Origin: an uncultured Anaerolineae bacterium
GTDB taxonomy: Bacteria > Chloroflexota > Anaerolineae > JACIWP01
Assembly (NCBI GenBank): GCA_938049385.1
Contig: CALIBQ010000003.1
Span: 1 to 64,000, forward strand
Direction of reading: 5' to 3'
Length of the DNA stretch: 64,000 nt
Part shown: one piece after another, positions 27,358-29,386 of the stretch
Layout of the letters: each line of letters opens with the position of its first letter
How positions within the stretch are numbered: the stretch's first letter is position 1
Notes under the pieces: model-generated
Told to the model about the DNA's origin: nothing
The model's database searches: none
The model's input: only the letters and a program-made list of their open reading frames with translations
Position numbers and translations under genes: made by a program

Positions 27358-28014
27358 TCAGCTCTTGGCCGGCCGCACCGCCTCCAGAATCTTCTCCAAC
27401 AGCATGCCCTCCGGTGCCGCACCCTCGATGTGCACCTTCTCGTTAATGACCGTGCGCGGCACGCCCTGGACATGATATTTTTGCCCCAGGTGCGGGAACT
27501 CGATCACCTCAATGCCATCGGCACGCACCTTGTCGCTCTCGATGGCCATGCGGTGCGCCAAATGCACCGCGCTGGGGCAGTATGGACAGGTCGGCGTGAC
27601 GAAGACTTGCAGGTGCACCGGGGTCTCCAGCTTTGCCAGCGCCTCCTTCGTCTTCTGCGAAAGGCCCGATTCTCCCTTGGAGACCGCAATCATGGTCTCA
27701 ATAAGGCCGGTAAATTCATACCCTGATGGGATCCCGTAGAAGCGGATGCCGTAATCCTTCGCCCCAATAATGGCAATGGCCGGAATCTTATCAATGCCGT
27801 AGGCTTCCGCCTTGTCCTTGTCGGTGACGAAGTTATAGACCTCCACATGCACGCGCGGGGAGATCTCCCCCAGCTCCTCCACCAACTGCCGGGTCTCGCG
27901 GCAGAACTGACATTCGAACTCCTGGGTGAACATGACCAGCGTCACGTCATTGACGAACTCCTGGTCGAACATCTTGCGGATCGTCTCGCGATCTTCCTTG
28001 CCAATCAGTGCCAT
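27358..28014 (-). CDS. Protein disulfide oxidoreductase with two thioredoxin folds
   Basis: A 218-residue protein; ATG 28014 with GGAGGG upstream is preferred over in-frame positions further upstream, which fall in the promoter. There are two tandem thioredoxin units, each with a redox motif: C35-QF-C38 and C143-PY-C146, with cis-Pro segments KIPAI and GVPRT. This is the archaeal/thermophile glutaredoxin-like PDO plan, used for cytosolic disulfide formation, isomerisation or reduction by a thioredoxin reductase-like partner. The promoter is overlaid by CsoR/CstR-like operators, suggesting induction by copper or reactive sulfur species (inference). Confidence 0.88.
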   Translation of the reverse strand: MALIGKEDRETIRKMFDQEFVNDVTLVMFTQEFECQFCRETRQLVEELGEISPRVHVEVYNFVTDKDKAEAYGIDKIPAIAIIGAKDYGIRFYGIPSGYEFTGLIETMIAVSKGESGLSQKTKEALAKLETPVHLQVFVTPTCPYCPSAVHLAHRMAIESDKVRADGIEVIEFPHLGQKYHVQGVPRTVINEKVHIEGAAPEGMLLEKILEAVRPAKS

Positions 28015-28043
28015 GGGAACGCCCTCCTCTGTTCGTTTCATGC

Positions 28044-28060
28044 ATACCCCGTATGGGTAT
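28044..28060. promoter_or_regulatory. CsoR/CstR-like operator 2
   Basis: The inverted repeat ATACCC-N5-GGGTAT lies just downstream of the -10 element of the disulfide oxidoreductase promoter. Confidence 0.55.
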
Positions 28061-28064
28061 CTCC

Positions 28065-28093
28065 AATATACCATACCCCTAGGGGGTTGTCAA
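28065..28093 (-). promoter_or_regulatory. Promoter of the disulfide oxidoreductase gene
   Basis: On the minus strand TTGACA (28088-28093), 17 bases, TATATT (28065-28070). Confidence 0.8.
28073..28088. promoter_or_regulatory. CsoR/CstR-like operator 1 in the promoter spacer
   Basis: ATACCCCTAGGGGGT occupies the spacer between -35 and -10. G-tract/C-tract palindromes of this form are bound by copper sensors of the CsoR family and by the persulfide sensor CstR. No such regulator gene is in the window. Confidence 0.6.
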
Positions 28094-28106: not shown

Positions 28107-29120
28107 TCATCCCACCAGGCGGGCGAATTCGTCGCGAGGGAAGCGTGGAAGGGGGCGGTCGCTGCCGGCATCGTTCAACCACACCCCCGCGTCCGCCGGC
28201 AGTACCTCCCCAATACAGCGCGCTGGAATGCCGGCTTCTTCCAGTACTTGCACCGCCCGCTCCGCCTCCTGCGCCGGCACCGCCGCCAGCAGTGCGCCCG
28301 AGGCGATCAGGCCCAATGGGTCCAGCCGGAAACGTTCGCAGAGCGCCCGCGTCTCCGGCAGGACGGGAATCTGCTCCCGATGCACCCGCAGGCCGACGCC
28401 GGCGGCCGCCGCCAGCTCCCAAAGCGCCGTCGCCAGCCCGCCTTCCGTCGGGTCATGCATGGCATGTACATCCACATGCTGGCGCAGAAGACGCGCCTCG
28501 CGCACGACGCTGATGCCGGGCTCGTGGAGCATTCCTCGACAGCGCGCCAGGAAATCGGCAGGGAACTCGCCGGCCAGCTCAGCCCCCTTCTCACGGGCGA
28601 TGAGCGCCGTGCCCTCGATGGCGATGCCCTTGGTCAGGATGAGCGCATCGCCCGGCCGGGCGCCGGCGGAGTGCACCAGCTTGGCCGGCTCCACCTCTCC
28701 CAGCATCAGCCCCACCAAAATGGGACGGTCCAGGTCGTAGGTGATCTCGGTGTGCCCGCCGCACAGGGTGATGTCCAGCGCCCGGCAGGCCTTCGCCAAC
28801 TGGGCAAAGATGGATTCCGCCATTTCCGCGTCAGCACTGCCGGCCGGCAAAAGCGCCGTCACCAAGAGCCAGCGTGGCACCCCGCCGCTACAGGCAATAT
28901 CGTTGGCATTCACGTTGACCGCGTACCAGCCGATCTCGTCCGTGGCAAAAGTGATAGGGTCAGTCTTGGCCACCAGATAGCGCTCGCCGAAATCAATGAC
29001 CGCGGCGTCCTCTCCCACCCCTGGCCCAACGATGACGCGATCGTCAGGACGCGTATATTTCGCCAGCAGAGCCTGGAGCAGGTCCGCCGGCAGTTTGCCC
29101 ACTGGCAAAGGCTTCGACAT
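28107..29120 (-). CDS. AIR synthase-related protein, HypE-like but lacking the C-terminal Cys
   Basis: A 337-residue protein of the PurM/SelD/HypE/ThiL ATP-binding superfamily: VGPGVGEDAAVIDFGE near the N-terminus, DPITFATDEIGWYAVNVNANDIACSGG for ATP, and DPTEGGLATALWELA in the C-terminal half. HypE ends in PRIC, whose cysteine is carbamoylated for hydrogenase cofactor synthesis. This protein ends RDEFARLVG with no cysteine, so it is not a standard HypE, and no other hyp gene is visible. Its role is unknown. GGGAGG precedes the ATG. It is expressed behind a leader with a small peptide and a terminator-like hairpin. Confidence 0.8.
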   Translation of the reverse strand: MSKPLPVGKLPADLLQALLAKYTRPDDRVIVGPGVGEDAAVIDFGERYLVAKTDPITFATDEIGWYAVNVNANDIACSGGVPRWLLVTALLPAGSADAEMAESIFAQLAKACRALDITLCGGHTEITYDLDRPILVGLMLGEVEPAKLVHSAGARPGDALILTKGIAIEGTALIAREKGAELAGEFPADFLARCRGMLHEPGISVVREARLLRQHVDVHAMHDPTEGGLATALWELAAAAGVGLRVHREQIPVLPETRALCERFRLDPLGLIASGALLAAVPAQEAERAVQVLEEAGIPARCIGEVLPADAGVWLNDAGSDRPLPRFPRDEFARLVG

Positions 29121-29153: not shown

Positions 29154-29191
29154 GTAAAAGGCCTCTCTCGAAGCCGAGCGAGGCCTTTTAC
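29154..29191 (-). terminator. Terminator-like hairpin between leader peptide and HypE-like gene
   Basis: Reading leftward, GTAAAAGGCCTCGCTCG, a 4-base loop, and CGAGAGAGGCCTTTTAC form a 17-bp stem with one mismatch. The A-tract/GC-stem/T-tract layout is that of an intrinsic terminator, placed 33 bases ahead of the HypE-like start and 25 bases after the leader-peptide stop. That position suggests attenuation. Confidence 0.65.
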
Positions 29192-29216
29192 GTCTCTCTG
29201 CGCCGCAGCGTCTCTT

Positions 29217-29273
29217 CTACCGGACTTCAGCAGGAGGTGACGCTACGGCGCAACGCATGTTACTATTACACAT
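29217..29273 (-). CDS. Putative leader peptide, 18 residues
   Basis: A short reading frame MCNSNMRCAVASPPAEVR preceded by AAAAGGAGGTGAT, a nearly full complement of the 16S rRNA 3' end, 11 bases from the ATG if counted from GGAGG. Codons 2 and 8 are cysteine and codons 1 and 6 methionine. It lies between a near-consensus promoter and a terminator-like hairpin, as leader peptides in attenuators do. Within the peptide TCACCTCCT can pair with the Shine-Dalgarno. No family is recognised; coding is supported only by layout. Confidence 0.5.
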   Translation of the reverse strand: MCNSNMRCAVASPPAEVR

Positions 29274-29357
29274 GTGTGGCATCACCTCCTTTTCCGTAGG
29301 ATGGCGACGGAGGGGAAAAGGAGTGCGCCGTTGACACACCTTTTCACACCGAACCCC

Positions 29358-29386
29358 ATTATCGCACAGAATGCGCCGGCTGTCAA
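29358..29386 (-). promoter_or_regulatory. Promoter of the leader peptide / HypE-like transcript
   Basis: TTGACA (29381-29386), 17 bases, GATAAT (29358-29363) on the minus strand, leaving a leader of about 230 bases before the HypE-like start. Confidence 0.75.

Follow-up and report, generated by a model that had tools for sequence, protein, structure and literature searches.

The described systems closest to the RNA reported here share single traits with it. Leader-peptide attenuators (the trp/his type and mycobacterial cysteine attenuation) combine within a single transcript a short open reading frame (ORF), its Shine-Dalgarno sequence (SD), hairpins and an intrinsic terminator, and in ribosome-arrest leader peptides such as TnaC, ErmCL and SecM a short ORF is translated and where it lies with respect to a hairpin is important. 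Dual-function small RNAs (SgrS, RNAIII, SR1) carry a small ORF within a structured RNA that has its own promoter and terminator, and in SD-sequestering pseudoknots (the preQ1-I and SAM-II riboswitches and the rpsO/S15 mRNA) the SD pairs with a hairpin loop. A further likeness is offered by raiA/ModT, a broadly conserved structured RNA gene that was long without a known function (PMC11706538).

The unit lies on the minus strand, from 29386 to 29154, of the window, i.e., the whole stretch of 64,000 nucleotides analyzed from an uncultured Anaerolineae bacterium, and has the following anatomy:

29358 to 29386, minus strand: sigma-70-type promoter, TTGACA-17-GATAAT with an extended TG, 11 of 12 positions matching
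29297 to 29305, minus strand: GCCATCCTA motif (family consensus GCYATCYYA), with its GCYATC core at 29305-29300, upstream of the SD
29278 to 29293, minus strand: extended SD, AAAAGGAGGTGATGCC
29217 to 29273, minus strand: 18-codon ORF, MCNSNMRCAVASPPAEVR, with its stop codon, TAG (29219-29217), inside the loop of P2
29199 to 29252, minus strand: hairpin P2, 14 bp, TGCGCCGTAGCGTC (29252-29239) with GACGCTGCGGCGCA (29212-29199)
29232 to 29240, minus strand: anti-SD TCACCTCCT at the top of P2, predicted to form a pseudoknot with AGGAGGTGA at 29290-29282
29154 to 29191, minus strand: intrinsic-terminator-like hairpin GTAAAAGGCCTC...GAGGCCTTTTAC with a T-rich end, 16 bp in the fold
28107 to 29120, minus strand: HypE-like AIR-synthase-related gene (PF00586/PF02769), the downstream neighbor, outside the unit

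The near-consensus promoter, the SD directed at 16S rRNA and the 18-codon frame of a preliminary description of this DNA are all found on the minus strand, together with the exact complementarity between a segment of the peptide frame (TCACCTCCT) and a segment of the SD (AGGAGGTGA); the 17-bp terminator-like hairpin of that description is also present, one pair shorter in the fold. At the SD (AAAAGGAGGTGAT, 29293-29281, minus strand), AAAGGAGGTGAT is perfectly complementary over 12 nt to the 3' end of the 16S rRNA encoded by this same genome, and P2 holds the 3' part of the ORF and its stop codon. The fold of the 211-nt sequence reaches -105.5 kcal/mol, against -68.3 +/- 4.5 kcal/mol for shuffled versions (z = -8.3); since it lies so far below the shuffles, and since the unit is kept in distant families, the element cannot be attributed to chance.

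The fold of the window copy contains an extra 5' hairpin, GAAAAGGTGTGTC...GCGCACTCCTTTTC (29346-29316, minus strand), whose sequence is not common to homologs outside the genus. Promoter-like sites number 5 in a 2.7-kb region, against 0.6 expected. The best NCBIfam match of the downstream gene is hypE, with a score below the cut-off of that model. A second near-perfect promoter, TTGACA-17-TATATT (28093-28065, minus strand), stands before a protein disulfide oxidoreductase gene (27358-28074) and is overlapped by the palindromes CCCCTAGGGG and ATACCCATACGGGGTAT, which by likeness form a putative metal or persulfide repressor operator.

A search at the DNA level recovers the unit from two congeneric genomes and, with 73-78% identity, from six that belong to other families of the class; the match spans the SD, the ORF and P2 and excludes the downstream gene. 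A covariance model built from eight sequences (R1) has matches in 230 of 396 genomes of the class (Anaerolineae-type Chloroflexota), and a second model built from 99 sequences (R2) in 139 of 199, with one match per genome, about 30% of class genomes having no match at the thresholds used. Named records carrying the exact pattern belong to Anaerolineae, Caldilineae, Thermoflexus and other Chloroflexota. Weaker matches with equal anatomy and different sequence are present in other classes of the phylum (families f71, of the MSISKRMGVTVGEAR type, f81, f107, f112, f124 and f80), and the weak matches in f74, f109 and f126 (L289-L294, L298) have the SD/ORF layout in common with the unit but are not counted as certain members. 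Those in f74 (L291-L294) may represent a compact variant: the SD and start are similar, the ORF has about 12-17 codons, and it is the loop of the terminator hairpin itself that contains the stop codon. Pattern matches in other phyla gave no model match and are taken as chance, the best E-value in a whole-genome model search of 14 such non-Chloroflexota genomes being 0.096.

No Rfam 15 model (tmRNA, 6S, SRP, riboswitches and others) scores above its gathering threshold at the window element or at nine homologous loci, and no description of the unit was found in the open-access literature. Chloroflexi-1, an RNA with an Rfam number whose only listed organism is Chloroflexus aggregans (Weinberg 2010, PMC2864571), was considered as a possible identity and does not match. 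It is close to certain that these sequences represent a new conserved, free-standing RNA family, and a small RNA gene of about 160-200 nt was probably ancestral in Chloroflexota.

The unit carries its own signals for the start and end of transcription. A TTGACA-17-TATAAT-like promoter is present in nearly all homologs, mostly 20-90 nt upstream, and 102 of 118 homologs have, no more than 25 nt from P2, a terminator that passes strict criteria; most of the others have a strong hairpin and miss narrowly, and the window copy fails with its T run inside the stem. Gene neighborhoods are much less uniform: about 19 of 118 loci, the one in the window among them, have a HypE-like gene downstream in the same orientation, an HNH-type gene lies on the opposite strand in 19 loci, and other neighbors vary. 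As neighbors differ in both identity and strand, with 51 of the 91 assignable downstream genes on the opposite strand, the unit cannot in general be a HypE leader, and the attenuator specific to HypE-like genes of the preliminary description is not supported, the unit preceding or facing many gene types. That description did not include P2, the invariant GCYATC motif upstream of the SD or the autonomy conferred by the unit's own promoter and terminator, nor the position of most copies elsewhere than ahead of a HypE-like gene.

A linked downstream gene that could be regulated is consequently a property of subsets such as the HypE-like loci and not of the family. In most of the HypE-like loci checked, the gene starts a few to some tens of nucleotides past the terminator, a gap offering a promoter little space or none; it must therefore be reached by read-through or from a promoter hidden in the element; read-through control is thus possible at these loci. 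A cis attenuator in which ribosome movement on the ORF sets terminator read-through into the downstream gene (the HypE-like gene in the window) would account for this close spacing, and is nonetheless unlikely as an explanation of the unit, for the many opposite-strand neighbors speak against it, as does the structure itself: in minimum-energy folds of the window copy and of homologs, P2 and the terminator are adjacent, have no bases in common and form together, no antiterminator is seen, and a terminating ribosome would disrupt P2 rather than the terminator. Several HNH-type loci have a tRNA cluster a short way downstream, and in f81, at L283 (1427-2101), the element is oriented toward the 3' end of a 23S rRNA gene. 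A tRNA- or rRNA-linked position was discarded as a general property, nearby tRNA clusters mostly tracking one gene neighborhood.

Structure statistics were obtained from an alignment (A6) of 68 diverse sequences. In P2, both sides change in 7 of 10 conserved pairs and 96.3% of cells are paired, so that by covariation this hairpin is the best-supported predicted structure of the unit. The helix between the SD and the P2 loop is paired in 96.5% of cells, against at most 75% in slid controls. At one position of this helix, A-U is replaced by G-C in 10 sequences and by G-U in 5, and the codon concerned switches from Ser to Pro or Leu; the amino acid changes with the pair, and it is therefore the pairing, not the peptide, that is followed. 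In one lineage (f28), a longer SD (GGAGGAGG) occurs together with a longer anti-SD (CCCTCCTC). Since 16S rRNA also constrains the SD, most SD/anti-SD columns are not free to covary, and the case for the pseudoknot is therefore made by the one compensatory pair, the G-U changes, the lengthening in f28 and the slid control. The self-pairing, short frame and terminator put forward in the preliminary description are accordingly conserved in relatives, with a compensatory change in the self-pairing of the kind it had named as a check.

Median duplex energies of the SD are -20.9 kcal/mol with the 16S tail, -21.7 kcal/mol with its own P2 loop and about -12.5 kcal/mol with shuffled loops, the near equality of the first two being partly built in because the anti-SD copies the 16S tail. 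GGAGGTG and the following TG of the SD are invariant in the 68 sequences, as are GC and T of the GCYATC motif, in which A and C are almost so. Pairing of this motif with the SD can form in 93.5% of cells, with no covariation, and the motif may be a weak partner of the SD. A 5' pairing between GCYATCCT and AGGAGGTG (P1), suggested by some single-sequence folds, is without covariation and was kept as a possibility only.

These invariant segments also bear on a second alternative, a trans-acting small RNA whose seeds for the ribosome-binding sites of mRNAs would be the P2-loop anti-SD, the GCYATC motif or both, with exposure of the seeds or decay of the RNA controlled by the ORF. The single copy with its own promoter and terminator, the invariant GCYATC motif and the CACCUC exposed in the P2 loop are what would be expected of such an RNA. 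An anti-SD of this kind, however, would fit nearly every strong SD and confer little specificity, this genome having 30 occurrences of AGGAGGTGATG alone, and this explanation appears somewhat unlikely.

In 117 of 118 homologs the short ORF runs uninterrupted to a stop within P2, and stops occur early in the other frames (85 of 118 homologs in +1 and 115 of 118 in +2). The start codon is ATG in 115 homologs and GTG in 3, and the SD-to-start spacing is 8 nt in 84. The sole homolog with a broken frame (L063, about 2004-2104) represents either a real loss or an assembly error. In the first codons of the window copy (29272-29258, minus strand), the other-frame stops read TAA TAG TAA, the corresponding sequence being TAGTAG in most homologs, and codons 3-5 almost invariably end in T among homologs, an RNA-level signal.

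The constraint on the frame is hardly matched by one on the peptide. Outside P2, changes are about equally frequent at the three codon positions (343/307/354), and single changes comprise 73 synonymous and 223 non-synonymous ones, with 50 synonymous expected without selection, a slight excess that leaves room for weak selection on the peptide. The frame kept in 117 homologs, the tolerated GTG start and an M-D-x-S-S that recurs at the N-terminus could be read as signs of an mRNA whose translation is autoregulated and whose product is a conserved micropeptide (MDxSS...AVASPR). Such an mRNA is very unlikely given the near-equal variation of codon positions and the loss of AVASP where the RNA pairing changes (ASLLK, ALPP or GVTAGEAR standing in its place), and L095 and L111 read P2 in another frame with the stop still in P2. 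The stalling peptide of the preliminary description fares no better: besides the equal codon-position changes, which are near-neutral, the C-terminal half varies freely between lineages, and no conserved arrest residues are found. Its suggestion of Cys or charged-tRNA sensing falls as well, since most homologs have no Cys codon and the position of such codons is not fixed. Selection seems, from these substitution patterns, to act on where the ribosome enters and exits and hardly at all on the peptide.

The reading we prefer, with a probability of roughly 0.45 and resting on sequence comparison, is that this free-standing RNA is a ribosome-occupancy switch whose SD is contested between its own P2 loop and the 16S tail. 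The RNA would have two states. In the closed one, P2 would be formed with its loop on the SD, and loading of the 30S subunit would be blocked. Where a 30S subunit wins the SD, about 17 codons would be translated before the ribosome enters P2, opening both the hairpin and the SD:anti-SD duplex, and it would stop there, short of the terminator hairpin, so that each ribosome would leave the RNA open for the next one. Translated and untranslated forms might differ in stability or in the segments they expose, such as the P2-loop anti-SD and the GCYATC motif, and the RNA could report ribosome supply or act as a trans-acting regulator under the control of that supply. Where a HypE-like gene directly follows the terminator, read-through might be set by the switch as well. 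We infer the closed and open states, the opening by a translating ribosome and the reading of ribosome supply. A wider proposal, an ancient, phylum-wide sensor of free ribosomes that unites an SD and a copy of the 16S tail in one RNA, is toggled by a throw-away ORF and has a global trans-acting output in Chloroflexota, is doubtful.

The architecture is new in being undescribed within Rfam 15 and the open-access literature; if the output proves to be ordinary mRNA pairing, the unit falls back to a variant of translated small RNAs. As a normally single-copy RNA gene found in the majority of families of a class, within a major and poorly studied phylum, it is likely important, and its design is unusual, the points of ribosome entry and exit being selected and the peptide hardly, with both SD and anti-SD halves in one RNA. 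A short ORF under little peptide constraint can evidently face strong selection, which is a trap for small-protein annotation. If confirmed, the switch would offer a simple system in which to test how ribosome supply is read by cells, and Chloroflexota would gain a marker RNA.

Compared with the known systems, the unit fails the defining tests of leader-peptide attenuators: it is free-standing and has neither a conserved regulatory codon run, nor an overlapping antiterminator, nor a conserved downstream gene. It differs from TnaC, ErmCL and SecM in that its peptide sequence is not conserved. We know of no ORF crossing the main hairpin of raiA/ModT. That RNA also belongs to other phyla, Bacillota and Actinomycetota (PMC11706538). 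With dual-function small RNAs and SD-sequestering pseudoknots the unit shares single traits, and it cannot be placed in either class. Like the former it has its own promoter and intrinsic terminator, but, in contrast with SgrS, RNAIII and SR1, its structure is built around the ORF, the peptide is apparently dispensable and the RNA would sequester its own SD. Like the latter it has, as judged from aligned homologs, an SD paired with a hairpin loop; unlike in preQ1-I, SAM-II and rpsO, this hairpin lies downstream, inside the ORF, so that translation itself would open it, and the ORF that is gated is the short one and not the downstream gene.
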